Shown here one piece after another: positions 34,282 through 50,334 of a stretch of 64,000 nucleotides of DNA; position 1 is the stretch's first letter; each line of letters begins with the position of its first letter. The stretch is from an uncultured Lachnospiraceae bacterium (GTDB lineage: Bacteria; Bacillota; Clostridia; Lachnospirales; Lachnospiraceae), in contig ONDV01000001.1 in assembly GCA_900316665.1 (NCBI GenBank), positions 1 through 64,000 on the forward strand, read 5' to 3'. The notes under the pieces were generated by a model. It was not told the origin of the DNA, searched no databases, and saw only the letters and a program-made list of their open reading frames with translations. Position numbers and translations under genes: made by a program.

Positions 34282-36045
34282 TTACTCTACATCCTGAAGT
34301 GCAGCTACATCTTCTTCGCCTGTACGTACCTTGACTACCTTGGAGACGTTATATACGAAGATCTTGCCGTCACCTATATGTCCGGTGTAGAGGGCTCTCT
34401 TGGCTGCGTCAATTACCTTATCGACAGGTATCTTTGCTACGATCACTTCAAGCTTCACCTTTGGAAGAAGTGTTGAATCAACGACAGCGCCACGATATCT
34501 CTCTGTAGTACCCTTCTCAATGCCGCAGCCCATTACCTGTGTCATTGTCATTCCGGTTACACCGAGATCATTAAGAGCTTTTTTCAGTGTATCAAATCGT
34601 GCCAGTTTTGCGATAATTACGATCTTATGCATGCCTGTATCAAGTTCAGGTACAAGAGGTGCCTCAGACTTTACAGGTACTGCAGCATTCTTCTTGGCCT
34701 CGCTTGCATTATCATAAGAATCTTCACCGAGGTCAGTATTCTCATTCACATCGACATTCATATCTGTGACATCAGTGATTGCAAATCCGGAGAAAGCTGA
34801 TGTAAGACCATGCTCATGAATATCAAGACCATCTATCTCGACCTCTTCCGGTACACGGAGACCGACTGCCTTGTCAATAATCTTAAAGATAATGAACATT
34901 GTGATCGATACAAAGGCATCGATTGCTATAATTCCAAGAACCTGGATGCCAAGCAGCTTTGCGCCGCCGCCGTAGAAAAGACCCTTCATCACTCCGTCAG
35001 CTCCGTTAGAGAAGAGACCTACAGCAAGAGTGCCCCAGATACCATTTACCATATGTACTGAAATGGCACCAACAGGGTCATCGATCTTTGCTACATTATC
35101 AAAGAATTCAACTGAGAATACTACAAGGAAGCCTGCTATTAATCCGATAAAGAATGCACCTACAGGTGTTACGCAGTCACATCCTGCTGTGATGGCTACA
35201 AGACCGGCAAGTGCCGCATTCATTGTCATCGAAACATCCGGCTTGCCATAACGGAACCATGTGAAAATCATTGCCACAAAGGTTGCTACAGCAGCTGCCA
35301 GGTTTGTGTTCATGAAAGCAAGAGAAGCTGTCTTTGCGTTATCAGCTGTGCTCATGGCGATCGTAGAACCGCCATTGAATCCAAACCAGCAGAACCAGAG
35401 GATAAATACGCCGAGAGCCACGCTGACCATATTTGATCCGGGAATAGCTCTTGCTTTACCGTCTTTATCGTACTTGCCGATTCTTGGTCCGAGAATGGAC
35501 GCACCGATCAGTGCGATTACACCGCCTACGTTATGTACCAGAGATGATCCGGCGAAATCATGATATCCGAGTGTTGAGAGCCAGCCGCCGCCCCATGCCC
35601 AGTGACCTGTCACAGGGTAAATGAGAAGTGATATGCATGCGGAGTAGATGCAGTATGCTTTGAAATTCGTACGCTCTGCCATGGATCCTGAAACAATAGT
35701 AGCTGCTGTCGCGCAGAATACTGTCTCAAAAATTACAAAGCACCAAAGCGGCATTCCCTGAGCTACCGCCGTATTCTTTGCGGTATAGAATGAAGTGTCC
35801 CTGATAAAGAAGTCTGGAGTTCCTATGAACCCTCCGAGTCCGCCATGGAACATAAGTCCGAAGCCGATAAGCCAGAAGCACGGCGTACCTATACAGAAAT
35901 CCATCATATTTTTCATCAGGATGTTACCTGTATTCTTGGCTCTGGTGAGACCTGATTCGCAGAGAGCAAATCCTGCCTGCATAAAATACACCAATGCCGA
36001 ACACAGGAGAACCCAGATGACAGTTGTCAAACTAATCTTATCCAT
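34282..36045 (-). CDS. amt: Ammonium transporter fused to a PII domain
   Basis: Ammonium channel with a covalently attached PII regulator. Residues 1-about 405 form the Amt domain of about 11 helices (MQAGFALCESGLTRAKNTGNI, GHWAWGGGWLS, FNGGSTIAMS). A linker rich in Asp, Asn and Ala follows, then a complete PII domain at about 472-587. In it IEKGTTERYRG is the T-loop and HIGDGKIFV plus VRTGEED are the ATP/trimer motifs. PII position 51, the uridylylated Tyr of GlnK, is Val here, and Gln39 is Glu. Start at 36045 has AGGAGG 8 bp upstream; the ATG at 36051 is only 2 bp from it. Expression probably depends on the leader terminator described separately. Confidence 0.94.
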   Translation of the reverse strand: MDKISLTTVIWVLLCSALVYFMQAGFALCESGLTRAKNTGNILMKNMMDFCIGTPCFWLIGFGLMFHGGLGGFIGTPDFFIRDTSFYTAKNTAVAQGMPLWCFVIFETVFCATAATIVSGSMAERTNFKAYCIYSACISLLIYPVTGHWAWGGGWLSTLGYHDFAGSSLVHNVGGVIALIGASILGPRIGKYDKDGKARAIPGSNMVSVALGVFILWFCWFGFNGGSTIAMSTADNAKTASLAFMNTNLAAAVATFVAMIFTWFRYGKPDVSMTMNAALAGLVAITAGCDCVTPVGAFFIGLIAGFLVVFSVEFFDNVAKIDDPVGAISVHMVNGIWGTLAVGLFSNGADGVMKGLFYGGGAKLLGIQVLGIIAIDAFVSITMFIIFKIIDKAVGLRVPEEVEIDGLDIHEHGLTSAFSGFAITDVTDMNVDVNENTDLGEDSYDNASEAKKNAAVPVKSEAPLVPELDTGMHKIVIIAKLARFDTLKKALNDLGVTGMTMTQVMGCGIEKGTTERYRGAVVDSTLLPKVKLEVIVAKIPVDKVIDAAKRALYTGHIGDGKIFVYNVSKVVKVRTGEEDVAALQDVE

Positions 36046-36094
36046 TTTCATGTCCTCCTATTTTCTTTCATCTACACTTTTTCTATATTGCACG

Positions 36095-36149
36095 AAAAAT
36101 GGCATCTGAGAAAATAATGAAACCATTATCTTCTTAGACGCCCTTGTCC
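36095..36149 (-). promoter_or_regulatory. amt leader: ANTAR-type hairpin overlapping an intrinsic terminator
   Basis: Read leftward: hairpin GGAC-AAGGGC-GTCT (36149-36136), whose hexaloop has A at position 1 and G at position 4. Its loop end and 3' arm form the start of a terminator stem of about 19 bp with one mismatch (5' arm GGCGTCTAAGAAGATAATG, 3' arm ending AGATGCC) followed by ATTTTT at 36100-36095. The two structures exclude each other. Antitermination by the linked ANTAR protein is inferred from the shared motif with gltB and glnN leaders. Confidence 0.7.
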
Positions 36150-36241: not shown

Positions 36242-36285
36242 TAAAAAAGAAAAATGCCGGTAAAGCAGCTATCTGCTCGACCGAC
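36242..36285 (-). terminator. Intrinsic terminator after gltD
   Basis: GTCGGT and AGCAG arms pair with CTGCT and ACCGGC, with a small internal loop, followed by ATTTTTCTTTTTT. It lies about 90 bp after gltD. The rest of the 36052-36375 interval holds the amt leader and an AT-rich stretch where I could not place a convincing amt promoter. Confidence 0.75.
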
Positions 36286-36375
36286 ACCTTTGCCGTATTT
36301 CAATTATGTATTGTATACAGTTGACTTATGAATGTAAAGTATTTTTTTTAATCCAAAACTCATAAGCGGTTATCA

Positions 36376-37929
36376 TCAGGCAAGTCCGGAATATCCCATC
36401 AGATATTCATCAACTTCTCTTGCCGCAGAGCGGCCTTCTACTATACCCCAGACCACCAGGGACTGACCTCTTCTCATATCACCCGCGGCAAATACTCCGG
36501 GAACAGAAGTAGCATATTTCCCTTCAGCAGTCTCAGCCACATTTCTCTGGGTACGCTTGATATTGAAAGCCTCGGCCGTATAATCTTCGCATCCTACAAA
36601 TCCTGCGGCAATCAAAAGTATGTCACATGGATATGTCTTTTCAGAGCCTTCAACTTCCACCATCTTACGGTTTTCGAATCTCACCTTCACTGTCGTAACA
36701 GACTTTATCAAGCCGTCTTTTTTAGTCTCTACAGACTTGACAGTTGTCTCGTAAATTCTCGGATCGTGTCCAAAGAGAGCTATAGCCTCCTCCTGACCAT
36801 AATCGGTCTTCAGAGTCTTCGGCCACTCAGGCCAGGGATTTGATTCCGCCCTTTCTGACGGAGGACATGGCATCATCTCAAGCTGTATCACGGACTTTGC
36901 GCCCTGTCTTATAGAAGTAGCCGTGCAGTCATTTCCTGTATCTCCGCCGCCGACGATAATTACATTCTTTCCGGCAGCAAACATCTTTGCACCATCAGGC
37001 GAGAGCTGCTTCTCTTCTTCCTTTGCCGATGTCTTTTTCTTTTTCTTCGAAAATTCCAAAGCCTCGCTTCTTCCGCCTGTCACTGCTCCGCTTAAGAGAT
37101 CTCTTGTGGCCTGTGAGAGATAATCCACGGCATAATAGACTCCGCCGATCTTTGCCGGATCTGCTGCCGGAAGAGATCTCGGTTTTTTTGCGCCGCAGCA
37201 AAGTACGATGGCATCATATTGCTTTTTCAGCTCATCTGCTGTAATATCAACGCCCACATTAACTCCGGTCTTGAAAACAACGCCTTCTTCCTCCATCAGC
37301 TTCTTACGACGGATAATAACCTCCTTCGGCAGCTTCATATTTGGAATACCGTACATAAGAAGTCCGCCGATCTGAGGCTCACGTTCATATACTGTCACAT
37401 TATGACCCCGTCTGTTCAGCCTGTCTGCACAGGCAAGTCCTGCGGGGCCGGCTCCAATCACAGCTACTTTTTTGGAACTGCGGTTTTCAGGTATCCTTGG
37501 CTTTATATATCCCTTTTCAAATGCGGTCTCTATTACATAAAGCTCATTGTCACGGATGGTGACAGGGTCGTCATTCTCACCCTCGACGCAAGCCTTCTCG
37601 CAGAGCGCCGGACATACTCTTCCTGTGAATTCAGGAAAATTATTAGTCTTCTGAAGTCTCGAAAATGCGTATGCAGGATGACTGTGATATACTTCATCAT
37701 TCCATTCGGGTATAAGGTTATGCAGCGGACAACCCGTATACATCCCGGACAATTTCATTCCGGACTGGCAGAGCGGAACGCCGCAGTTCATGCAGCGCGC
37801 CCCCTGTTCTCGTCTTTCTTCTTCCTTAAGCGGCTCATGAAACCACTCATAATTTTCTATTCTCTTCTGAGGATCAATATCTTTGTTATCTTCTCTTTTG
37901 TATTCCAGAAATCCGGTCGGCTTACCCAT
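36376..37929 (-). CDS. gltD: Glutamate synthase small subunit
   Basis: NADPH-oxidising subunit that feeds electrons to GltB. The N-terminal Fe-S region has CMNCGVPLC, GCPLHNLIPEWN and CPALCEKACV. Two Rossmann motifs follow: KVAVIGAGPAGLACADRLNRRGH for FAD, and NVIIVGGGDTGNDCTATSIRQG for NADPH. FAAGDMRRGQSLVVWGI is the C-terminal FAD motif. Length 517 is longer than the usual 480-490. The excess is a Lys-rich segment (FSKKKKKTSAKEEEKQL, about residues 300-316) just before the second nucleotide-binding site. ATAGGAGGCAAAC precedes the ATG. It is 26 bp after gltB, co-transcribed. Confidence 0.96.
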   Translation of the reverse strand: MGKPTGFLEYKREDNKDIDPQKRIENYEWFHEPLKEEERREQGARCMNCGVPLCQSGMKLSGMYTGCPLHNLIPEWNDEVYHSHPAYAFSRLQKTNNFPEFTGRVCPALCEKACVEGENDDPVTIRDNELYVIETAFEKGYIKPRIPENRSSKKVAVIGAGPAGLACADRLNRRGHNVTVYEREPQIGGLLMYGIPNMKLPKEVIIRRKKLMEEEGVVFKTGVNVGVDITADELKKQYDAIVLCCGAKKPRSLPAADPAKIGGVYYAVDYLSQATRDLLSGAVTGGRSEALEFSKKKKKTSAKEEEKQLSPDGAKMFAAGKNVIIVGGGDTGNDCTATSIRQGAKSVIQLEMMPCPPSERAESNPWPEWPKTLKTDYGQEEAIALFGHDPRIYETTVKSVETKKDGLIKSVTTVKVRFENRKMVEVEGSEKTYPCDILLIAAGFVGCEDYTAEAFNIKRTQRNVAETAEGKYATSVPGVFAAGDMRRGQSLVVWGIVEGRSAAREVDEYLMGYSGLA

Positions 37930-37955: not shown

Positions 37956-40900
37956 TCAGGCTCTCATTTCCTCGAATGCTTCTGTGACAGCATGCTCATG
38001 GCTTATGCCCTGTTCCTCAAACTTGCTTATCTCCACAAGCATTCTGTGGTAATCATTAGGAATTATCTTCTTGAAGAAGGGAAGATATTTATCGAAATGA
38101 GTAATCACTTCATTGCCGAGAGCAGAACCCGTCTCTCTTACATAATCATCAAGTATACCTCTGAGCTCTGCCACATCATACTTCTCTGTAACCTCAGTAA
38201 GAGAAACCATATCCTTGTTGATCTTTCTGTAAAGATCATGCTTCATATCAAGCACATAGGCAATGCCGCCTGACATACCGGCTGCCAGGTTCTTGCCTGT
38301 AGGTCCGAGTATTACGGCTCTTCCTCCGGTCATGTATTCAAGACCATGATCTCCACATCCTTCAGCGACAGCCGTAGCTCCGGAGTTTCTCACAAGGAAT
38401 CTCTCGCCGGCTACGCCCTCTATATATGCCTTGCCGCTTGTAGCTCCGTAAAGCGCCACATTTCCGATGATTATATTTTCAGAAGGCTTATAAGCCGCTC
38501 CCTTAGGAGGAACCACAACGAGCTTTCCGCCGGAAAGTCCCTTTCCGAAACCATCGTTTGCATCGCCTTCCAGCCTGAGCGTCATTCCTTTTGGAATAAA
38601 TGCTCCGAACGACTGGCCGCCGGCGCCGACGCAGTTGACTACGAACATATCCTCATCCAAAGTTTCAGCGCCATATTTTTCAGTAATTACAGAGCCAAGA
38701 ATTGTTCCAACCGATCTATCCGTACCTTTGACTCTGACAGTAGCTGAATGATGTTCCTTCTCTCCGATGGCATTCTCGAATTCAGGAATCAGGACAGCTT
38801 CATCGACCGTCTTCTCGAGATGGAAATCATAGACCTTTGCCGGATCAAAATGCGAACCGCTTGCGCCTGCAAATCTGGTATCAAGTATTCCCGAAAGATC
38901 GACAGAACCTGCTCTCTTGGTGATGGGATGATTTCTTACTTCGAGACAGTCAGTTCTTCCTATCATCTCGCTTACAGTATGGAATCCGAGATATGCCATG
39001 ATCTCACGCATTTCCTGAGCCACGAAGCACATGAAATTGATCACATGCTCAGGCTGACCCTTGAAGCGCTTGCGAAGCTCCGGATTCTGAGTAGCTATTC
39101 CGACAGGACATGTATCTTTTGAGCATACTCTCATCATCATGCATCCCATAGCTACCAGAGCTGCTGTGCCGAAACCATATTCCTCAGCGCCAAGAAGTGC
39201 TGCTATAGCCACATCTCTTCCGGTCATCAGCTTGGAATCAGCTTCAAGTATCACCCTATCTCTGAGTCCGTTCTCCATCAGAGTCTGATGAGCCTCGGCA
39301 ATACCAAGCTCCCAGGGGAGACCTGCGTGATGAACTGATGAATAAGGAGCAGCTCCGGTACCTCCGTCATAACCCGAAATAAGAATTACCTGAGCGCCTG
39401 CCTTTGCAACGCCGCTGGCTATGGTTCCCACTCCTGCTTCAGACACAAGCTTTACGGAAATACGCGCCTTTCTGTTTGCATTCTTAAGATCATAAATAAG
39501 CTGCGCCAGATCCTCTATCGAATATATGTCATGGTGAGGAGGCGGCGAGATAAGAGATACTCCCGGAGTGGAATATCTGGTTCTCGCAACCCAGGGATAT
39601 ACCTTTCTTCCCGGGAGGTTACCGCCTTCACCGGGCTTTGCGCCCTGAGCCATCTTGATCTGGATCTCATCGCCGGATATCAGATAATCTTCCGTCACGC
39701 CGAATCGTCCGGAAGCCACCTGCTTGACGGCAGAATTTCTTTCCGTACCGAATCTCTCAGGATCTTCTCCGCCTTCACCTGTGTTTGAACGTCCGCCGAT
39801 GCGGTTCATGGCGACTGCCAGCGTCTCATGAGCTTCTTTTGAAATAGCTCCGAAAGACATGGCTCCGGTCTGAAATCTCTTCACGATTGATTCTATCGGC
39901 TCTACCTCCTCAACCGGAATAGGCTTGTTGACCTGGCGGAATTTCATAAGTCCCCTCAGAGTATGAGGTTTCTCGTCATCCACTCCGGATGAATAATCCT
40001 TGAAAAGTTTATAATCTTTTCTGCGAACTGCCTCCTGCAGAGTCACTATGGTCTGCGGCCTGAACATATGGTCTTCAGCATCGGGACCGGATCTCAGTTT
40101 ATGGAATCCGGTAGAATCGATTGTTGTATCCTCCGTAAGTCCGAGCGGATCGTATGCTCTGTTGTGTCTGAATGTAACGCTTTCCGCTATCTCACCGAGC
40201 CCTATTCCGCCTACCCTTGAAACTGTGCCCGTGAAGTATTTGTCTATTACTTCTTTTGACAGACCGATGGCCTCGAAGATCTTTGCGGACTGATAGGACT
40301 GCAGCGTCGATATTCCCATCTTGGCTGATATCTTTACTATTCCCTTGAGGATTGCCTTGTTGTAATCCTCTATGGCCGTATGATAATCCTTGTCAAGTAT
40401 TCCGGAATCAATAAGCTCCGAAATACACTCCTGAGCTAAATAAGGATAGATCGCGCGCGCGCCGAATCCCAGCAGGGTAGCGAACTGATGAACGCTCCTG
40501 GGTTCTCCGGATTCAAGTATCAGAGATACCGCAGTCCTCTTCTTGGTTCTGACCAGATGCTGCTCAACAGAAGACACTGCCAGAAGAGAGGGAATAGGCA
40601 CATGGTTTTCATCGATCCCTCTGTCTGAAAGGATTATAATGTTATAACCTCTCTCAAAAGCACGATCTACCGATACATTCAGCTGATCCAACGCCTTTTC
40701 AAGCGAAGTGTTCTTGTAATAGATTATCTGCAGGGTGACCGCACGAAATCCGGGCTGGTCAAGAGATCTTATCTTCATCAGGTCAACGCCTGTAAGTATA
40801 GGGTTATTTACCTCCAGTACCCGGCAGTTCTGGCTGTTCTCTTCCAGCAGATTTCCATCAGAACCTATATAAACAGTCGTATCCGTTACTATCTTCTCAC

Positions 40901-42470
40901 GCAGTGAATCTATAGGCGGATTTGTAACCTGAGCGAAGAGCTGCTTGAAATAATTGAAGAGTGGCTGATGTTTCTCGGAAAGCACCGCAAGAGGCACATC
41001 ATGTCCCATGGACACGGTCGGCTCTACAGCATTTTCAGCCATGGGAAGAATATTGTCATTAACATCCTCATAAGTATATCCGAATACCTTATAAAGCCTG
41101 TCTCTCTGTTTCTGGTCGTAGACCGGTATCTTCTTGTTGGGAATAGCCAGATCTTCCAGATGAAGAAGCGACATATCAAGCCACTCGCCGTAAGGCTTTC
41201 TTGTGGAATAATACCGCTTGCATTCATCATCAGGAATCATCCTGCCTGCTTTTGTATCTATAAGGAGGATCCTGCCCGGCATAAGGCGCGATTTCTTTAC
41301 GATATGTTCGGCAGGTATGTCAAGAACGCCGACCTCGGAAGACAGGATCAGTCTGTTGTCATCAGTTATATAGTATCTGGAAGGACGCAGACCGTTTCTG
41401 TCAAGTGAAGCGCCGACAAGGTCTCCGTCTGAGAAGAGGATAGCTGCCGGTCCGTCCCATGGTTCCATCATGGTGGCGTAATAATGATAGAAATCCTTTT
41501 TTTCACGGCTCATGAATCCATTGTGTTTCCAAGGCTCCGGGATGGTAGCCATCACCGCAAGAGGAAGATCCATGCCTGACATATACAGGAATTCCAGAGT
41601 GTTGTCGAGTACGGCTGAGTCTGATCCTTTCGTGTCTATCACAGGGCAGATCTTGTCCATATCGTCCTCGAGATACGGCGACTTCATCGTCTCCTCACGA
41701 GCCAGCATACGATCCATATTTCCCCGGATAGTATTGATCTCACCGTTATGCGCGATCATTCTGTAGGGATGAGCACGTTCCCAGCTGGGCGTCGTATTGG
41801 TCGAGAATCTGCTGTGTACTATGGAAATAGCGCTTTCGTAATCAGGATCCTCAAGATCAGTGTAGAATTTTCTCAGCTGACCCACGAGAAACATTCCCTT
41901 ATATACGACAGTACGCGAAGAAAGTGAGCAGATGTAGGTGTCACTCTCTGACTGCTCGAATTCACGCATGGTGACATAAAGTTTTCTGTCAAAATCTATT
42001 CCGCGATTCACGTTCTCCGGTCTTCCCAAAAATGCCTGGGAAATGTAAGGCATGCAGTCATAAGCAACCTTTCCGAGAATTCCCGGATTCGTCGGCACGT
42101 CTCTCCATCCGAGAAAAGGAATTCCGTTCTTTTCTGCAATGACCTGGAACATTCTCTGCATCATGGTACGCTTTACGCGATCCTGAGGCAGAAAGAACAT
42201 ACCTATTCCATAATCTCCCTCTCCGCCCAGTGTAATACCTGACTTAAGGCAAGCCTTGCTGAAGAATTTGTGTGATATCTGCAGAAGTATGCCGACACCA
42301 TCTCCGACCTTGCCGCTTGCGTCTTTGCCCGCACGATGCTCCAGACGTTCTACTATATGAAGCGCGTCGTCCACATTTCTGTGATCCTTATGGCCGTCGA
42401 TATTTACTACCGTACCGATACCGCAGGCATCATGCTCTCTTTCATTGTATAGCAGGGATGGATTTTTCAT
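37956..42470 (-). CDS. gltB: Glutamate synthase large subunit
   Basis: Makes two glutamates from glutamine and 2-oxoglutarate. The glutaminase domain is Ntn-type with catalytic Cys15 in DACGIG, so a 14-residue propeptide must be removed. The central domain and FMN/2-oxoglutarate domain (MKFRQVNKPIPVEEVEPI, SNTGEGGEDPERF, KPGEGGNLPG, GASGYDGGTGAAP-like ISGYDGGTGAAP) follow. The 3Fe-4S cluster ligands lie in CSKDTCPVGIATQ. The C-terminal beta-helix domain (GNVALYGATSGKAYIEGVAGERF) ends the 1504 residues, the normal length. ACAGGAGGAAAACTAATA precedes the ATG. It has its own promoter and a long attenuated leader after the ANTAR gene. Confidence 0.98.
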   Translation of the reverse strand: MKNPSLLYNEREHDACGIGTVVNIDGHKDHRNVDDALHIVERLEHRAGKDASGKVGDGVGILLQISHKFFSKACLKSGITLGGEGDYGIGMFFLPQDRVKRTMMQRMFQVIAEKNGIPFLGWRDVPTNPGILGKVAYDCMPYISQAFLGRPENVNRGIDFDRKLYVTMREFEQSESDTYICSLSSRTVVYKGMFLVGQLRKFYTDLEDPDYESAISIVHSRFSTNTTPSWERAHPYRMIAHNGEINTIRGNMDRMLAREETMKSPYLEDDMDKICPVIDTKGSDSAVLDNTLEFLYMSGMDLPLAVMATIPEPWKHNGFMSREKKDFYHYYATMMEPWDGPAAILFSDGDLVGASLDRNGLRPSRYYITDDNRLILSSEVGVLDIPAEHIVKKSRLMPGRILLIDTKAGRMIPDDECKRYYSTRKPYGEWLDMSLLHLEDLAIPNKKIPVYDQKQRDRLYKVFGYTYEDVNDNILPMAENAVEPTVSMGHDVPLAVLSEKHQPLFNYFKQLFAQVTNPPIDSLREKIVTDTTVYIGSDGNLLEENSQNCRVLEVNNPILTGVDLMKIRSLDQPGFRAVTLQIIYYKNTSLEKALDQLNVSVDRAFERGYNIIILSDRGIDENHVPIPSLLAVSSVEQHLVRTKKRTAVSLILESGEPRSVHQFATLLGFGARAIYPYLAQECISELIDSGILDKDYHTAIEDYNKAILKGIVKISAKMGISTLQSYQSAKIFEAIGLSKEVIDKYFTGTVSRVGGIGLGEIAESVTFRHNRAYDPLGLTEDTTIDSTGFHKLRSGPDAEDHMFRPQTIVTLQEAVRRKDYKLFKDYSSGVDDEKPHTLRGLMKFRQVNKPIPVEEVEPIESIVKRFQTGAMSFGAISKEAHETLAVAMNRIGGRSNTGEGGEDPERFGTERNSAVKQVASGRFGVTEDYLISGDEIQIKMAQGAKPGEGGNLPGRKVYPWVARTRYSTPGVSLISPPPHHDIYSIEDLAQLIYDLKNANRKARISVKLVSEAGVGTIASGVAKAGAQVILISGYDGGTGAAPYSSVHHAGLPWELGIAEAHQTLMENGLRDRVILEADSKLMTGRDVAIAALLGAEEYGFGTAALVAMGCMMMRVCSKDTCPVGIATQNPELRKRFKGQPEHVINFMCFVAQEMREIMAYLGFHTVSEMIGRTDCLEVRNHPITKRAGSVDLSGILDTRFAGASGSHFDPAKVYDFHLEKTVDEAVLIPEFENAIGEKEHHSATVRVKGTDRSVGTILGSVITEKYGAETLDEDMFVVNCVGAGGQSFGAFIPKGMTLRLEGDANDGFGKGLSGGKLVVVPPKGAAYKPSENIIIGNVALYGATSGKAYIEGVAGERFLVRNSGATAVAEGCGDHGLEYMTGGRAVILGPTGKNLAAGMSGGIAYVLDMKHDLYRKINKDMVSLTEVTEKYDVAELRGILDDYVRETGSALGNEVITHFDKYLPFFKKIIPNDYHRMLVEISKFEEQGISHEHAVTEAFEEMRA

Positions 42471-42522: not shown

Positions 42523-42583
42523 AAAAAAAGCCGTCAGCAAACAGACAGATCTCAATCTGTCCACTCGCAGACGCCATTGTCTG
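42523..42583 (-). promoter_or_regulatory. gltB leader: ANTAR-type hairpins overlapping an intrinsic terminator
   Basis: Hairpin one is CAGAC-AATGGC-GTCTG (42583-42568), a hexaloop with A1 and G4 as in known ANTAR targets. A second stem GACAGAT/ATCTGTC lies at 42561-42544. The loop end and 3' arm of hairpin one (GGCGTCTGC, 42575-42567) can instead pair with GCTGACGGC (42538-42530), 7 of 9 positions, followed by TTTTTTT. Hairpin one and the terminator are therefore alternatives. The ANTAR gene ends about 80 bp upstream. Confidence 0.75.
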
Positions 42584-42664: not shown

Positions 42665-43219
42665 TTATATCATTGCAATGACCATCTCAGCTGTCTCGAC
42701 AAGAGACCTTCCCATATCCATGCTGTTCTTCTGAATATATCTGAATGCTTCCGGTTCTGTCATATGGTTTCGCTCCATCAGAAGAGCCTTGGCATCGTCT
42801 ATCTTCTTCTGCTCTTCAGGCGTACGCTTTCTCGGCATTTCGCGGCGCTTCTTCTTCTCGCGCCGCATTATGTGCTCCATCTGGGCAAGCATCATAAAAA
42901 CCGTATCTGTAAGCGCTGTACCCTTAACCGGCAGCGTCAGCGCCATCACGTCCGATTCTCGCCTCCCGGCTACAGACTGTGCGCTGTCAATCAGAAGAAT
43001 ACTGAAGAACTGCGGCAGATCCGCTAACAATCCTGTATAATCCATATCCTTAAGCCTTACAGGGCATATAAGGATACCTGTATTTCCCTCCTGCATCTCA
43101 CGAAGCGCCTCGCGTCCGTTAGACACAATCTGTATGTTCTGTATACCAGCATGCATCAGGACAGATCGTATCTTTTCCGACATTCTTTCGCCCGGAAATG
43201 CAATAATGATCTGACTCAA
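42665..43219 (-). CDS. ANTAR-domain RNA-binding antiterminator (NitR type)
   Basis: Predicted RNA-binding protein that prevents leader termination. The C-terminal ANTAR domain is clear (about 125-180: EEQKKIDDAKALLMERNHMTE, EAFRYIQKNSMDMGRSLVETAE). The N-terminal 115 residues look like a response-regulator receiver but lack the acidic pair in strand one, and the phosphoacceptor Asp is replaced by Cys52 (GILICPVRL); a Lys (LPVKGTAL) remains. So signalling is probably not by phosphorylation. A basic linker (RREKKKRREMPRKR) joins the domains. Start is TTG with GGCGGGAAG upstream. Order GlnA-like - ANTAR - gltBD matches the glnA-nitR-gltAB arrangement of solvent-producing clostridia, where NitR controls nitrogen genes. 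Confidence 0.92.
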   Translation of the reverse strand: MSQIIIAFPGERMSEKIRSVLMHAGIQNIQIVSNGREALREMQEGNTGILICPVRLKDMDYTGLLADLPQFFSILLIDSAQSVAGRRESDVMALTLPVKGTALTDTVFMMLAQMEHIMRREKKKRREMPRKRTPEEQKKIDDAKALLMERNHMTEPEAFRYIQKNSMDMGRSLVETAEMVIAMI

Positions 43220-43284: not shown

Positions 43285-44589
43285 TCAGATCCTGTGCAGA
43301 TACTCACGTATCTCCCAGTCTGTAACTTCGCCGGCATAGCGTTCCCATTCGCATGCTTTTTTGTCGGAATATATCCTGACATAATTTTCTCCGCATACCT
43401 CATTCATGAATTTGTCTCCGGAGAAAACATCTATGGCATCTCTCAGCGTTCTGGGAAGCGTACCCGTGCTTGTATCAGGTTCCGGAAGCGAAGTCTTCTT
43501 TTCTACACCATCAAGTCCGGCTGCTATCATACATGAAATGACAAGATAAGGATTTGTGGCGCCGTCCGGAAGCTCCCATTCTATAGCGGACTTTCCGTTT
43601 TCACCCTTCATCACTCTTACCGGAGCATTGTAATCATCCAAAGACCAGTAAATCCCCTTTTCGGTATAGAACCTTCCGCCGCTTCTCTTATAAGAATTGA
43701 CAATGGGATTTGCAATTGCAGTCATGGCTGCCATATGATCAAGTATTCCTGCCAGAAAATGCTTTCCGTCTTCTGACAGACCGGTCGGATCAGACTTGTC
43801 TGTGATCTTGTCCTTGCTTCCGTCAGCAGCAACAATATTAAGAGCCATGGCTGAGCCCGGCAGATCTGTTCTGGGCTTCGGCATAAAAGTAGCATGAAAA
43901 CCATGACGGCCGGCAATTGTTCTCACGGTATTTCTGAGCGTAAGTATCTGGTCTGCCATCTTGACGCCTTTTGCGCGTCTGAAAGCGACGGCATGCTGCG
44001 CGGGAGCATCTTCATGGTGAGACGATTCCATCTCAAAGCCCAGCTCCTCGAGAGCATATATTATGTCACGTCTGGCATTTTCACCCGAATCAAGAGGCGC
44101 CATATCAAGGTATAAAGCTCTCTCTTTTGTAGTATTTGTAGGATAGCCGTCCTCGTCCGTATCAAAGAGGAAGAATTCGCATTCAGGATTCATCTCGAAC
44201 TCAAATCCCATACTCTTTGCGCGTTTTAAAACATTTCTAAGAATAAACCTGGGACTCGGGGTTATAAGATTTCCTTTCTCGTCAGCCAGATCACAGAGGA
44301 ATCTCGCCACCTTGCCCTGCTGAGGTCTCCAGGGAAGTATGGCAAATGTGTCCGGATCAGGAATAAGATATATATTTCTGAGGCCAAACTCTCTTGCGCC
44401 GAGTATATGATAACCATCCACCGAACATCTGCCGTCCATAGCCTTTACTATCTCTGAGCCGGTAACAGCTATATTTCTCAGCACTCCAAAAAAATCGGAA
44501 AACTGCAGGCGTATAAATTTGACATCGTCATCTTCTATCATCTGCATTATTTCTTCTCTAGGCATATTCATGTCTTTATCACGCTGCAT
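43285..44589 (-). CDS. Glutamine synthetase I-like protein with degenerate active site
   Basis: A 434-residue homologue of GlnA. Colinear family segments include KFIRLQFSDFFGVLRNIAV, ECEFFLFDTD, HATFMPKP and NPIVNSYKR. Several catalytic positions are changed: the DGSSI loop reads DGYHI; the QHE metal ligand is Ala200 (AQHAV); the GSGMH metal/substrate His is Ala249 (GSAMA); the NRSP Arg is Tyr320 (DYNAP); and the RxExR Arg is Glu339 (IEWEL). Glu136, Glu138, Glu193 and Glu337 remain. Genuine glutamine synthesis therefore seems unlikely; a sensor or altered specificity is possible. AAAGGAGA precedes the ATG. It lies 46 bp after pyrG and 65 bp before the ANTAR gene. Confidence 0.85.
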   Translation of the reverse strand: MQRDKDMNMPREEIMQMIEDDDVKFIRLQFSDFFGVLRNIAVTGSEIVKAMDGRCSVDGYHILGAREFGLRNIYLIPDPDTFAILPWRPQQGKVARFLCDLADEKGNLITPSPRFILRNVLKRAKSMGFEFEMNPECEFFLFDTDEDGYPTNTTKERALYLDMAPLDSGENARRDIIYALEELGFEMESSHHEDAPAQHAVAFRRAKGVKMADQILTLRNTVRTIAGRHGFHATFMPKPRTDLPGSAMALNIVAADGSKDKITDKSDPTGLSEDGKHFLAGILDHMAAMTAIANPIVNSYKRSGGRFYTEKGIYWSLDDYNAPVRVMKGENGKSAIEWELPDGATNPYLVISCMIAAGLDGVEKKTSLPEPDTSTGTLPRTLRDAIDVFSGDKFMNEVCGENYVRIYSDKKACEWERYAGEVTDWEIREYLHRI

Positions 44590-44634: not shown

Positions 44635-46248
44635 TCAGCCTTTATTCGTTCTATATTCCACAGCGGCCTGAACCAACCCCGAAAACAGAGGATGTGCCTT
44701 ATTGGGGCGTGACTTGAATTCCGGATGAGCCTGCGTGCCGATATAGAAAGGATGATCGGTAAGCTCTATCATCTCGACAATTCTGTCGTCCGGAGACACA
44801 CCGCACAGCTTCATTCCTTTTTTCGTCATTATCTCCCTGTAATCATTATTGAATTCATATCTGTGTCTGTGACGCTCGGATATATCCTTCTTCCCGTACA
44901 GCTTATATGCAATCGATGTCTCATCAAGCACACACGGATATGCGCCCAGTCTCATTGTACCGCCCAGATTCTCGACATCGCGCTGTTCCGGCATAAGATC
45001 AATGACAGGATGAAGGGTATCGGGAGCAAACTCCGTCGAATTGGCATCATGATACGCAAGCACATCCCGCGCAAATGATACGACTGCCATCTGCATGCCA
45101 AGGCATATTCCAAGGAAGGGGATCTTTTTCTCTCTGGCATAACCTGCTGCCATGATCATACCCTGTGTTCCTCTGTCTCCGAAGCCGCCGGGGATCAGTA
45201 TGCCATCCACACCGTCAAGAAGTTCTTCGCAGCCCTTTTCTTCGACCTTCTCTGAATCGACCCATCTGATATCTACATCCGTCATAGTCTTGATTCCGCC
45301 ATGCTTAAGCGCCTCTACGACAGAAAGATAAGCATCATGCAGAGTGATATATTTACCGACTATGGCTATCTCCGCCTTATGCTTGGGATGGCGGAGATCC
45401 TCGACCATTTTTTCCCATTCCTTAAGTCCGACAGGCTCGCTCTCAGGAAGGTTCAGGCATTCAAGGACCGCATCAGCAAGGTGCTCCTTCTCCATAAGAA
45501 GCGGTACGGAATATAGGGAATCAGCATCCAGATTCTGAAGCACATGATTTGCAGGCACATTGCAGAAGAGCGCTATCTTGTCTTTTATAGACTGGGTAAG
45601 AGGCATCTCTGTCCGGCAGACAAGAATATCGGGCTGAATTCCGATTTCCAGGCATTTCTTTACAGATGTCTGCGTGGGCTTTGTCTTCATCTCTCCTGAT
45701 ACACGAAGATAAGGGATCAGGGTCACATGGATCATTATGGCATTTTCTCTGCCCACATCATGCTGAAACTGCCTTATTGCCTCCAGAAAGGGCTGGCTCT
45801 CTATATCTCCGACAGTTCCGCCCACTTCAATTATCGCTATACGCTCGTCATTTGGATCACTGCTTCTGAAAAACCTGGACTTTATTTCATTTGTGATATG
45901 GGGAATGACCTGGACGGTACCGCCGCCGTAATCTCCGTGTCTTTCCTTATTTAATACAGACCAGTAGATCTTTCCGGATGTTACGTTGGCATTATGATCC
46001 AGGGACTCATCAATAAAGCGCTCATAATGACCAAGATCCAGATCTGTCTCCGTACCGTCATCCGTAACAAAAACCTCACCATGCTGAATAGGATTCATGG
46101 TACCCGGATCCACATTGATATAAGGATCGAATTTCTGCATTGTCACACGATAGCCGCGGGCTTTCAAAAGTCTTCCGAGCGAAGCTGCCGTAATGCCTTT
46201 CCCCAGTCCTGACACCACGCCACCTGTAACAAAAACATATTTTATCAT
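44635..46248 (-). CDS. pyrG: CTP synthase
   Basis: Converts UTP to CTP using glutamine and ATP. The synthetase domain begins [23 protein letters not shown], with [16 protein letters not shown] and [16 protein letters not shown]. The C-terminal class I glutaminase has GGFGDRG, the nucleophile Cys in FLGICLGMQ and the His/Glu pair in AHPEFKSRP. Length 537 is standard. CAGGAGGACAGG precedes the ATG. It has its own promoter and a leader terminator, and runs toward the GlnA-like and ANTAR genes. Confidence 0.98.
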
Positions 46249-46277
46249 CCTGTCCTCCTGATCTTTTGTTTTTTACC

Positions 46278-46316
46278 AAAAAAGCGCCGGGCAAAAGACT
46301 TTAATGCCTTGGCACT
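46278..46316 (-). terminator. Leader terminator (attenuator) before pyrG
   Basis: Read leftward, AGTGCC pairs with GGCGCT (one wobble) with an inner GGC/GCC pairing, followed by TTTTTTGG. It lies between the pyrG promoter and gene, so it should attenuate pyrG. In Bacillus pyrG, CTP-sensitive stuttering on an initial GGG run controls such a terminator; I see no initial G-run here. Confidence 0.65.
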
Positions 46317-46399: not shown

Positions 46400-46428
46400 T
46401 TGACAAAACAATTTCACTTTGATAATAT
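46400..46428 (+). promoter_or_regulatory. glnN promoter
   Basis: TTGACA (46400-46405), 17-bp spacer, TAATAT (46423-46428). Transcription would start near 46435, right at the base of the leader hairpin. Confidence 0.8.
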
Positions 46429-46436
46429 CGCTTCAA

Positions 46437-46480
46437 CAGGGCAAAGGCGCTCTGGGCATAGCCCGGAGCGCTTTTTCTAT
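46437..46480 (+). promoter_or_regulatory. glnN leader: ANTAR-type hairpin overlapping an intrinsic terminator
   Basis: Hairpin CAGGGC-AAAGGC-GCTCTG (46437-46454), a 6-bp stem with a hexaloop having A1 and G4. Its loop end and 3' arm (GCGCTC and GGGC) pair instead with GCCC and GAGCGC to make a terminator followed by TTTTTCTATTTTT. The same alternative-structure logic is seen before gltB and amt. The hairpin starts within a few nt of the predicted transcript end, leaving no room for a first ANTAR hairpin. Confidence 0.7.
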
Positions 46481-46530: not shown

Positions 46531-48636
46531 ATGGCAGATATCTCAATTCCGGAAATCTACGGAAGCATGGTCTTCAATGACAAGGTTATGCATGAGCGTC
46601 TCCCCAAGGATACCTACAAGGCTATCCACAAGACGATCAAGGACGGCACCAGCCTTACACTTGAAGTTGCAAATACTGTTGCAGCTACAATGAAGGAATG
46701 GGCAATCGAACATGGTGCCACACATTTCACACACTGGTTCCAGCCAATGACAGGCTTCACTGCTGAAAAGCATGACAGCTTCATCAGCCCTCAGTCAGAC
46801 GGGACCGTGATCATGAGTTTCTCAGGAAAAGAGCTCATCAAGGGCGAGCCTGATGCATCTTCATTCCCTTCAGGAGGACTTCGCGCGACATTCGAGGCTC
46901 GCGGATATACAGCATGGGATCCCAGCTCACCTGCATTCGTAAAAGACGGCACTCTCTATATACCCACCGCATTCTGCTCCTACTCCGGAGAGTCACTCGA
47001 CAAGAAGACTCCTCTTCTTCGTTCCATGGATGCTTTGAACCATGAAGCAGTCAGACTTCTTCATCTTCTCGGCAAGACCGATGTCACACGTGTAGACACC
47101 ACAGCCGGAAGCGAACAGGAATATTTCCTTATTGATAAAGATCTCTATATGCAGAGAAAGGATCTTATCTTCTGCGGTCGCACTCTTATCGGCGCTCCTG
47201 CTCCTAAGGGACAGGAAATGGAAGATCATTACTTCGGTGTGCTGAAGCCAAAGGTTTCGTCTTTCATGCATGACCTCGACGAAGAGCTCTGGAAGCTCGG
47301 CGTACCGGCTAAGACAAAGCACAATGAAGTTGCGCCTTCTCAGCACGAGCTGGCTCCCATATTTGAGACCGCAAACGTCGCAGTTGATCATAACCAGCTG
47401 ACTATGGAAATCATGAAAAAGGTTGCTGACAAGCATCACATGGCATGCCTCCTTCATGAGAAGCCTTTCGAGGGAATCAACGGTTCCGGAAAGCATGTGA
47501 ACTGGTCTATGTCAACAGATACAGGCGAAAACCTTCTCGAGCCCGGAAAGACACCTGCCGAAAATACTCAGTTCCTTGTTTTCCTTCTGGCAACGATCGC
47601 AGCTGTAGATAACTATGCTGATCTTATGAGAATTTCCGTAGCATCAGCAGGAAATGATCACCGTCTCGGAGCAAATGAAGCGCCTCCCGCTGTTATCTCC
47701 ATTTTCGTCGGCGATGAGCTCGAGCAGATCCTCGATGCTATCGACAAAGGCATCAGTCCTGAGGATGCAGAGCATACTCTTATGGATATAGGTGCAAAGA
47801 TCCTTCCTACGTTTATGAAGGATACTACCGACAGAAACAGGACTTCACCGTTTGCATTCACAGGAAATAAATTCGAGTTCCGTATGCCCGGTTCTTCCGT
47901 GTCAGTAGCTGATCCTATTGTAATTCTCAATACTGCCGTAGCAGAATCGCTCAGAAAGATCAGAAAGACACTTGAAGGAGTGCCTGAAGCAGATCTTCAG
48001 CAGAACATAATGAAACTACTTCAGGAAATCATGAATGAGCATAAGAAGGTCATCTTCAACGGCAACGGCTATACCGATGAATGGATTTCGGAAGCTGAAA
48101 AGAGAGGTCTTTATAATCTTAAGTCCCTTCCTGAAGCTATGCCTTCACTCCTTGCAGAAAAGAACGTAAAGCTCTTCACCCAGTTCCATATCTTTGATAA
48201 GAAAGAACTTGAAGCCCGTTATGAGATCCTGCTTGAGAATTATTCCAAGACTATTCATATCGAAAGCCTTACAATGCTCGATATTGTCAAGAAAGACTTC
48301 ATCCCCGGACTTCTTGATTATATGTCAGACGTCACTGCTGAAGCGATTTCAAAGAAGGAACTTTCTGACAGCCTGTCAGTCGGTCTCGAAACCGATCTTC
48401 TTTCTTCACTTTCATCTTCATCTGATGACATTATGAAGAGTGTCAAGAAACTTGATGATGATACAAAAAATGCAGAAGCATTAACTGATGAAAAGACCAA
48501 GGCTACAGATTATCATGATGTGATCTTAAGCGATATGGATGATTTGAGAAAAGTTGTAGATACAGCGGAAGCGCTTATTCCTGCCGCATATCTTGATTAT
48601 CCTACATATGATCAGCTGTTGTTCTCACTTCGCTGA
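46531..48636 (+). CDS. glnN: Glutamine synthetase type III
   Basis: ATP-dependent synthesis of glutamine from glutamate and ammonia; type III enzymes are large dodecamers found in Bacteroides and many Clostridia. Type III signatures are present: HFTHWFQPMTGFTAEKHDSF, the Ser/Gly-rich PSGGLRATFEARGYTAWDP, KHNEVAPSQHELAPIFE, NGSGKHVNWSMST and NRTSPFAFTGNKFEFR. All canonical metal and substrate motifs look intact, unlike the GlnA-like paralogue. Length 701 is normal. AAGGAGCTTATAAA precedes the ATG. It is likely the working glutamine synthetase here and is controlled through its leader terminator; asnB follows without a terminator. Confidence 0.97.
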   Translation: MADISIPEIYGSMVFNDKVMHERLPKDTYKAIHKTIKDGTSLTLEVANTVAATMKEWAIEHGATHFTHWFQPMTGFTAEKHDSFISPQSDGTVIMSFSGKELIKGEPDASSFPSGGLRATFEARGYTAWDPSSPAFVKDGTLYIPTAFCSYSGESLDKKTPLLRSMDALNHEAVRLLHLLGKTDVTRVDTTAGSEQEYFLIDKDLYMQRKDLIFCGRTLIGAPAPKGQEMEDHYFGVLKPKVSSFMHDLDEELWKLGVPAKTKHNEVAPSQHELAPIFETANVAVDHNQLTMEIMKKVADKHHMACLLHEKPFEGINGSGKHVNWSMSTDTGENLLEPGKTPAENTQFLVFLLATIAAVDNYADLMRISVASAGNDHRLGANEAPPAVISIFVGDELEQILDAIDKGISPEDAEHTLMDIGAKILPTFMKDTTDRNRTSPFAFTGNKFEFRMPGSSVSVADPIVILNTAVAESLRKIRKTLEGVPEADLQQNIMKLLQEIMNEHKKVIFNGNGYTDEWISEAEKRGLYNLKSLPEAMPSLLAEKNVKLFTQFHIFDKKELEARYEILLENYSKTIHIESLTMLDIVKKDFIPGLLDYMSDVTAEAISKKELSDSLSVGLETDLLSSLSSSSDDIMKSVKKLDDDTKNAEALTDEKTKATDYHDVILSDMDDLRKVVDTAEALIPAAYLDYPTYDQLLFSLR

Positions 48637-48670: not shown

Positions 48671-48725
48671 GGATGATCTCATGATCTCTGCGGCACAGAA
48701 GCCACCGGATCATGAGATTCATTCG
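48671..48725. repeat. Long inverted repeat in the glnN-asnB interval
   Basis: Arms around TGATCTCATGATC and GATCATGAGATTCA pair over about 15 bp with one bulge, enclosing about 20 nt. No T-run follows. It may be a processing site or regulatory hairpin; its loop contains a small GGC-ACAGAA-GCC hairpin. Confidence 0.6.
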
Positions 48726-48747
48726 GTTTAGAAAAGAGGTACATGTA

Positions 48748-50334
48748 ATGTGCTCCATTCTGGCGTGGTGCCGAAAAGACGCGCCTAAGGACAAATTTCA
48801 GGAATCCCTCATGCGAACCACATCAAGAGGTCCTGATGCTACCAAGACGATTGATACGGGAAAAGGTCTGATGGGCTTCAACAGGCTGGCCATAATGGGA
48901 CTGACAGCCTCAGGCATGCAGCCCTTTCAGTTGGGAGGCGATGCTTTAGTCTGTAACGGAGAGATCTATAATTTCCGTCCGAGAAAGCAGGAGCTTATCA
49001 CAAAGGGTTATACTTTCTCATCTGACAGCGACTGCGAGATTCTGCTTCCTCTTTATAGAGAGCTTGGTTGCAGCATGTTTGAGACGCTTGACGCTGAATA
49101 TGCTTTAGTTTTATATGACAGCGTCTCAGATTCCTATGTTGCCGCAAGAGATCCGATCGGCATCAGACCTCTCTACTATGGTTATGATGAAAGCGGAGCC
49201 ATAATCTTTGCTTCAGAGCCCAAGAACCTTGTCGGCTTAACTGAAAAAATCATGCCTTTCCCTCCCGGTCATTATTATAAGGACGGCGAATTCGTGCAAT
49301 ATGCTGATCCCGCTCATGTAGATCATATCAGGCATGACAGTATGGAACTTGTAGCAGGCAATATTCATGATCTCCTAGTTGCCGGTGTCGAAAAGAGGCT
49401 TGATTCTGACGCTCCGGTCGGATTTCTCCTCTCCGGAGGTCTCGACAGTTCGCTCGTATGCGGCATCTCTGCAAAGCTGATGAAAAAACCTCTTGAGACC
49501 TTTGCAATTGGTATGGACATTGATGCCATCGACTTAAAATATGCCAGACAGGTTGCTGACTATATAGGTTCAAACCATCATGAAGTGATTATTTCAAGAG
49601 ACGATGTAATAAATGCTCTTGAGCCTGTTATCGCTGCACTTGGGACATATGACATCACTACGATCAGAGCCTCCATCGGTATGTATCTGTGCTGTAAATG
49701 GATACATGAGAATACTGATGTCCGCGTTCTTCTTACCGGTGAAATAAGCGATGAGTTATTTGGTTACAAATATACCGACTTTGCCCCGAATGCTTTTGCT
49801 TTCCAGGAAGAAGCTGAAAAAAGAGTGCGTGAGCTTCATATGTATGATGTCCTGAGGGCTGACCGCTGCATCAGCGTCAATTCTCTTGAGGCGCGTGTCC
49901 CCTTCGGCGATCTTGCCTTTGTGGATTATGTAATGTCAATTGATCCTGAGATGAAGCTAAATAAATACAACAAGGGCAAGTATCTTCTCCGCCATGCTTT
50001 TGAGAACGACCACCTTATTCCTGACGATATTCTCTGGAGAGAAAAGGCAGCTTTCTCTGACGCTGTAGGTCACTCTTTAAAGGATGATCTGGCGGATTAT
50101 GCTGAGAGCCATTTCACTGACATCGAATTCCAGGAAAAGCGTAAAAAATACACACACGCACAGCCCTTCACGAAAGAATCTCTTCTCTATCGTGAGATCT
50201 TCGAGAAATATTATCCCGGTCAGTCACAGATGGTCAAAGATTTCTGGATGCCAAACAAATCATGGGATGGTCTTCAGAACGTCAATGATCCATCAGCAAG
50301 AGTTCTTTCAAACTACGGTGCAAGTGGAATCTGA
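48748..50334 (+). CDS. asnB: Asparagine synthase (glutamine-hydrolysing)
   Basis: Makes asparagine from aspartate, ATP and glutamine. The ATG at 48748 gives the required N-terminal Cys2 (MCSILAW), the Ntn glutaminase nucleophile, and AAGAGG lies 8 bp upstream; the frame open from 48712 is rejected. Glutaminase motifs are FNRLAIMGL, LVCNGEIYNFR and SDSDCEILL. The synthetase domain has the pyrophosphate loop LLSGGLDSSLVCG, ARQVADYIGSNHHEVII, TGEISDELFGYKYT and LEARVPFGD. Length 528 is close to E. coli AsnB (554). It follows glnN by 111 bp, so glutamine is produced and used by adjacent genes. Confidence 0.96.
   Translation: MCSILAWCRKDAPKDKFQESLMRTTSRGPDATKTIDTGKGLMGFNRLAIMGLTASGMQPFQLGGDALVCNGEIYNFRPRKQELITKGYTFSSDSDCEILLPLYRELGCSMFETLDAEYALVLYDSVSDSYVAARDPIGIRPLYYGYDESGAIIFASEPKNLVGLTEKIMPFPPGHYYKDGEFVQYADPAHVDHIRHDSMELVAGNIHDLLVAGVEKRLDSDAPVGFLLSGGLDSSLVCGISAKLMKKPLETFAIGMDIDAIDLKYARQVADYIGSNHHEVIISRDDVINALEPVIAALGTYDITTIRASIGMYLCCKWIHENTDVRVLLTGEISDELFGYKYTDFAPNAFAFQEEAEKRVRELHMYDVLRADRCISVNSLEARVPFGDLAFVDYVMSIDPEMKLNKYNKGKYLLRHAFENDHLIPDDILWREKAAFSDAVGHSLKDDLADYAESHFTDIEFQEKRKKYTHAQPFTKESLLYREIFEKYYPGQSQMVKDFWMPNKSWDGLQNVNDPSARVLSNYGASGI

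Follow-up and report, generated by a model that had tools for sequence, protein, structure and literature searches.

A glutamine synthetase homologue paired with an ANTAR protein in a Lachnospiraceae genome is probably a former enzyme that now serves to sense nitrogen

What is the role of a glutamine synthetase (GS) homologue whose active site has been largely replaced, when a second synthetase is encoded close by? The question is raised by a 434-residue protein (P0001) encoded in the 64,000-nucleotide stretch of an uncultured Lachnospiraceae genome analysed here (contig ONDV01000001.1, positions 1 to 64,000, hereafter the window; Table 1). A previous sequence-only reading had described it as a GlnA-like protein with lost metal and substrate residues, and had suggested that this pseudo-enzyme senses glutamine or a related ligand and passes the state to the product of the adjacent ANTAR gene, here called NitR. 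We favour, with moderate confidence, the explanation that this catalytically dead GSI-alpha homologue is the signal-input partner of the co-encoded NitR, the most likely signal being 2-oxoglutarate, by which cells register nitrogen starvation, bound in an inter-subunit allosteric pocket.

The family assignment is clear from both sequence and predicted structure. The pseudo-GS contains the Pfam domains Gln-synt_N and Gln-synt_C, and over its full length it can be aligned with GSI-alpha enzymes of known structure (B. subtilis 4s0r, E = 1.8e-99; P. polymyxa 7tfa, E = 3.2e-100). Its AF2 model displays the full-length GSI fold, with a TM of about 0.9 to the GS of M. mazei, B. subtilis and P. polymyxa. 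Against the NCBIfam GlnA model (TIGR00653) the protein scores 290 bits, below the curated equivalog cut-off of 429.

Table 1. Genes and leader elements of the locus, in window coordinates.
Feature	Position	Strand	Remarks
Pseudo-GS (GSI-alpha homologue)	43285..44589	-	alignment, residue mapping
NitR-like ANTAR protein, 184 aa (P0002)	42665..43219	-	pseudo-receiver, coiled coil, ANTAR domain; Pfam ANTAR 8.3e-18, alignment, AF2 model
pyrG (CTP synthase)	44635..46248	-	45 bp upstream of pseudo-GS; same order in L004, L005
gltB (glutamate synthase large subunit)	37956..42470	-	predicted NitR target
gltD-like small subunit	36376..37929	-	ORF matches gltD of L004, L005, L014
amt with fused C-terminal P-II domain	34282..36051	-	predicted NitR target
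GSIII (glnN type)	46531..48636	+	
asnB	48712..50334	+	downstream of GSIII; order conserved in L004, L005
GSIII leader hexaloop hairpin	46437..46480	+	CAGGGC-AAAGGC-GCTCTG; 3' arm is the terminator 5' arm
gltB leader hexaloop hairpin	42530..42583	-	CAGAC-AATGGC-GTCTG; overlaps terminator
amt leader proximal hexaloop hairpin	36093..36149	-	GGAC-AAGGGC-GTCT; overlaps terminator
amt leader distal hexaloop hairpin	36243..36295	-	CGGC-AAAGGT-GTCG; overlaps terminator

The active site is heavily altered. Using B. subtilis numbering, which applies to all GS residues below unless window residues are given, the protein carries S55Y, S56H, R62E, E196A, N240P, G243A, H245A, E304Y, R316Y, R331A and R335E. 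The alignment shows that the five substitutions named in the sequence-only reading (DGYHI, A200, A249, Y320 and E339, in window numbering) were correct, residue numbers included, and that further losses had been missed; the remaining replacements are E67 (R62E), P244 (N240P), A247 (G243A), Y308 (E304Y) and A335 (R331A). At the ten metal or catalytic positions that were scored (E132, E134, E189, E196, H245, E304, R298, R316, E333 and R335) we count five replacements in the window protein, where the assignment of Y308 to E304 hangs on an ungapped flap alignment and E310, two residues on, could be the displaced flap residue; across the window clade the scored losses are four to six of ten, and three in L087. 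In addition, the Y-loop segment (358-388) has 17 residues in the window clade compared with 31, a 14-residue deletion that takes most of the Y loop. The residues E132, E134, E189, E333, R298, G241 and R321 are retained. With such a pattern the pseudo-GS is predicted to be catalytically dead, without glutamine synthesis activity.

The surrounding genes all belong to one conserved arrangement, in which pyrG, pseudo-GS, the ANTAR gene, gltB, gltD and amt-P-II follow each other on the minus strand, with GSIII and asnB divergent, and the identical order is found in two rumen Lachnospiraceae (L004 and L005). The pyrG and pseudo-GS genes probably form one operon, and the P-II domain fused to Amt is a likely 2-oxoglutarate/ATP sensor. 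Only two GS genes, the pseudo-GS and GSIII, and one ANTAR gene occur in the 2.07-Mb genome, which is 97% complete. GSIII keeps the catalytic motifs of the solved GSIII 3o6x, in line with the earlier remark that a full type III enzyme is encoded nearby, and it is present in 388 of 397 Lachnospiraceae genomes. Where GlnA occurs with no detectable GSIII (G083, G210 and G295) or with weak GSIII hits (G085), it is essentially intact, which is what one would predict if the loss depends on the presence of another synthetase; the number of such cases is small.

The pseudo-GS is not a local defect, because its orthologues within the genus share the core losses and the gene evolves with a dN/dS of about 0.07. 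Five further genomes of the genus have a pseudo-GS with 68-69% identity, and common to them are E196A, H245A, R316Y, R335E and a replaced E304; homologues with all catalytic residues, which the sequence-only reading had considered the mark of a local defect, were found only among more distant relatives. The reading frame is open in every genus orthologue examined, and the dN/dS values, calculated for two pairs of genus mates (L146/L147 and L146/L148), are 0.067-0.086 for pseudo-GS and 0.039-0.040 for NitR, indicating purifying selection. Two genomes of the same genus (G303 and G401) have a much more divergent ANTAR-linked version instead, and one (G397) has none. The divergent version belongs to a clade of ANTAR-linked GlnA (L114-L143 and L149) with 35-39% identity to the window protein, in which most members have a C-terminus about 23 residues shorter, a feature that may block hexamer-hexamer stacking.

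At the level of the family, a homologue is present in 340 of 397 Lachnospiraceae genomes, and an ANTAR gene follows every sampled Lachnospiraceae GlnA except one, L122, which lies on a short 3.1-kb locus. Among 121 aligned ANTAR-linked GlnA, 46 have all ten catalytic positions, 31 lack one and 44 lack two or more (E304D being counted as tolerated), and a metal ligand is lost in 33, proportions that are not population estimates as the sample was picked by similarity to the window, and counts that are not independent since the sequences are related and the set holds at least two duplicates (L004 and L005 appear to be records G402/L144 and G403/L145). None of the 33 ANTAR-free GlnA from other bacteria shows any catalytic loss. 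On a quick GlnA tree, from which all ten scored positions and most other such columns had been removed, at least 12 state changes are required, and the window clade (14 rows, 100 percent SH-aLRT) is degenerate throughout. The replacements vary even among close relatives, with Y, H, S, C or F at E304 and E, K, T or L at R335. E134 is replaced in a single sampled protein, L179 (E134R), where R298 and G241 remain. A pseudo-GS next to an ANTAR gene is also found in L262, from another clostridial family, where E132K, E196Q, H245F, E333S, E304N and R316K are accompanied by an intact 2-oxoglutarate motif; this protein apparently arose independently.

The ANTAR partner is encoded 65 bp downstream of the pseudo-GS, and combines an ANTAR domain with a receiver-like domain and a coiled coil. 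As the sequence-only reading had recognised, its receiver cannot be phosphorylated in the usual way: in the alignment the acidic pocket is absent and a Cys occupies the phospho-Asp position. The phospho-acceptor Asp is likewise missing in those NitR partners of intact GlnA that were aligned. The AF2 model of NitR resembles EutV-RNA (6ww6), Rv1626 and the AmiR of AmiC-AmiR, and the alignment shows no GlnR-like C-tail, the protein ending right after the ANTAR domain. The locus co-encodes a GS-fold protein with a non-phosphorylated ANTAR protein, and the two are predicted to be in physical contact.

If the pseudo-GS is a sensor, the question becomes which ligand it reads. The 2-oxoglutarate pocket known from methanogen GS consists of Phe18, Arg20, Arg88, Arg174, Arg175 and Ser191 in MtGS (PMC10799026), and of F24, R26, S38, R87, R172, R173 and S189 in M. 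mazei GS (PMC11957540); mapping by the residue offsets from these two papers leads in both cases to B. subtilis positions 20, 22, 83, 169, 170 and 186. In B. subtilis GS itself, Tyr20 and Glu36 would block 2-oxoglutarate, and the equivalent of Arg88 is missing (PMC10799026). In the window protein the pocket is complete (F25, R27, R88, R173, R174 and S190, with N39, A41 and V94), and the clashing equivalents of Tyr20 and Glu36 are absent. The full motif (F20, R22, R83, R169, R170 and S186) is found in 116 of 121 ANTAR-linked proteins, including 43 of the 44 degenerate ones, and in 10 of 33 ANTAR-free GlnA. Of 420 columns, 11 reach a conservation of 97% or more among the ANTAR-linked proteins but stay below 90% in the ANTAR-free set, and five of these are pocket positions (hypergeometric P about 5e-7, ignoring phylogeny). 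The 44 degenerate proteins, whose pairwise identity has a median of 0.43 and a minimum of 0.31, have 41 invariant columns, among them 20, 34, 83, 89, 169, 170 and 186, with position 22 at 98%. Since several GlnA of clostridia and Desulfuromonadales that lack an ANTAR partner carry the motif as well, it is ancestral, and structural constraints could account for part of its conservation; our argument relies on the motif surviving while catalysis is lost, and not on its presence as such. The pattern suggests that the pseudo-GS would bind 2-oxoglutarate.

The fate of the glutamine-feedback pair is the opposite. In the feedback-inhibited GS (FBI-GS), Arg62 and Glu304 bind and lock the feedback glutamine (PMC9249791). 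Both are present in 21 of 46 catalytically intact ANTAR-linked proteins, and together in none of the 31 with one loss and none of the 44 degenerate ones; the window protein has E67 and Y308 in their place. Sensing of glutamine is weakened by this loss, and this part of the earlier suggestion is probably wrong, while the part that sees a pseudo-enzyme sensor acting for the ANTAR protein stands. The alternative that glutamine or glutamate is sensed in the former active site, and the state passed to NitR, is one we consider unlikely. It has a precedent in GS-GlnR/TnrA, where glutamine-bound GS controls a regulator, and E134, G241, H188 and R298 survive in the degenerate proteins, so that the old active site could still accommodate an amino acid; three of these (E134, G241 and R298) touch the amino-acid substrate in GS of known structure and are invariant or nearly so. 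Besides the missing pair, however, the deleted Y loop and the absence of a GlnR-like C-tail on NitR speak against it.

It is also conceivable, though we judge it quite improbable, that the dead GS oligomer is a ligand-independent scaffold or decoy that binds NitR stoichiometrically and sets a threshold, the signal entering elsewhere, for example through the P-II domain of Amt, which is indeed encoded in the cluster. A scaffold does not explain why the pocket residues are the positions that set the conserved core apart from other GlnA, nor why F20, R83 and S186 never vary among proteins that share 31-43% pairwise identity. Some relatives of GS, the gamma-glutamyl-polyamine and methylamide synthetases, act on altered substrates, and a glutamate-methylamine ligase (9qur) is among the structure matches of the pseudo-GS, which would fit a neofunctionalised ligase acting on another substrate. 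We hold this to be highly unlikely, as the metal ligands E196 and H245 and the phosphate or catalytic residues R316, R331 and R335 are lost, and the differing replacements of E304 and R335 among close relatives point to relaxation instead of a new active site. The replaced active-site residues would also suit a decaying gene without function, an explanation that is scarcely credible given the open frames and the low dN/dS described above, together with the retention of the core invariants.

The preferred reading, a 2-oxoglutarate-responsive partner of NitR, calls for RNA targets. The hexaloops recognised by ANTAR proteins have A as their first and G as their fourth nucleotide, and of the two hairpins in a target the second overlaps a terminator (PMC3369931, PMC3369936). 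Hairpins with hexaloops of this kind, whose 3' arm is in each case shared with a terminator, are present in the leaders of GSIII, gltB and amt, the last with two (Table 1), and equivalent elements recur in L004, L005 and L014. Promoter-like sequences lie at 46400-46428 before GSIII (TTGACA/TAATAT) and at 42639-42611 before gltB (TTGACA/TAAAAT). In an alignment of 18 hairpins, some of whose stems carry an unpaired base, 17 cells show changes in both partners of a base pair, compared with 8.6 in shuffles, and sliding the partner abolishes the signal. A chance origin was rejected, as the pattern CAAAGGYGYN{18,48}TTTTT gives four overlapping matches at two window sites, with 0.01 expected. A strict search that demanded two hairpins, each with its hexaloop and a stem of 4 bp or more, returned nothing at the nitrogen genes, and an Rfam scan of 30000-52000 gave no relevant match. 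In the published ANTAR model two hairpins (P1 and P2) are required, whereas a second, upstream hexaloop was not found and each leader element shows one; the promoter-like sequences sit close upstream of the hexaloop hairpins and leave little room for P1. Either P1 is cryptic or these leaders use a single hairpin.

In genus mates, hexaloop-terminator elements are also found ahead of pyrG-pseudoGS-nitR and of asparagine synthase. The window pyrG leader (46249-46310, minus strand) has a terminator-like stem without a hexaloop, at a place where L005 (7078), L234 and L235 have a hexaloop-terminator, and control of the pyrG operon may differ from that in genus mates or include CTP attenuation. A pattern search, by which alone the regulon was sampled, revealed two further sites in the same genome, before an ornithine-cyclodeaminase-like gene (G000:C8:6881-6916, L225) and a PotA-like ABC gene (G000:C39:15640-15680, L226), both named by sequence inspection; these genes are probable further members of the NitR regulon. 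NitR would be expected to bind the GSIII, gltB and amt hairpins. Taking together the strict pairing, the orthologues with the same losses, the purifying selection, the repeated loss and the predicted NitR targets in the leaders of GSIII, gltB and amt, the role of a pseudo-enzyme serving the ANTAR protein is well supported at the level of sequence analysis.

The GlnA of C. saccharobutylicum is an active enzyme, whereas the window GlnA is predicted to be dead and GSIII does the synthesis. In both systems a GS gene lies next to an ANTAR gene and to glutamate synthase, and antitermination acts, or is predicted to act, on nitrogen-assimilation genes; in C. saccharobutylicum, NitR brings about antitermination of GS/GOGAT genes when nitrogen is limiting (PMC6316151). 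The Lachnospiraceae system descends from a glnA-nitR arrangement of this type. As in AmiC-AmiR and NasS-NasT (PMC3795266), the ANTAR protein is not driven by receiver phosphorylation and is co-encoded with a partner that goes back to a metabolic binder, but the sensors of those systems have the periplasmic-binding-protein fold, whereas the window partner has a GS fold and its complex with NitR is a predicted one. The use of a GSI-alpha as signal input to a nitrogen regulator is shared with the Bacillales FBI-GS and GlnR/TnrA (PMC9249791), in which, however, the GS is active and reads glutamine via the two residues lost here, and the regulator has the C-tail that NitR lacks. The 2-oxoglutarate-activated GS of Methanothermococcus and Methanosarcina (PMC10799026, PMC11957540) have the same coordinating residues (F, R, R, RR and S), all conserved in the window protein, but are active enzymes, while the active site is gone here. 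Finally, the leader elements resemble EutV-type target RNA (PMC3369931) in the A1/G4 hexaloop, the short stem overlapping the terminator and the location before nitrogen genes, and differ in having one visible hairpin per element instead of two. We found no relevant report of a GS pseudo-enzyme paired with an ANTAR protein in the openly readable literature.

A possible mechanism can be outlined. Under nitrogen plenty, without 2-oxoglutarate, the pseudo-GS oligomer would hold NitR inactive, in the manner of AmiC/AmiR and NasS/NasT. Under nitrogen shortage, 2-oxoglutarate would change the shape of the oligomer or bring about its assembly, and NitR would be released or activated; by stabilising the hexaloop hairpins of the GSIII, gltBD and amt leaders, NitR could then allow RNA polymerase to pass the terminators. 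This direction of the switch is a suggestion, and the reverse, in which the 2-oxoglutarate-bound ring activates NitR, is equally compatible with the data. On the wider question we see the chances as about even that the pseudo-GS family emerged from glnA-nitR pairs on repeated occasions, with the 2-oxoglutarate pocket as the only site retained, and that its members became dedicated 2-oxoglutarate sensors of an ANTAR RNA antiterminator.

For the clostridial NitR-type ANTAR proteins, the present proposal names a ligand as the signal, together with a pocket residue (Arg88) and an RNA element. Many Lachnospiraceae genes annotated as glutamine synthetase are probably not enzymes. If the proposal is true, an enzyme would have become a dedicated metabolite sensor on many occasions, intermediate forms would survive in related bacteria of the gut and rumen, and a carbon/nitrogen signal would control transcription termination directly through a dead enzyme.
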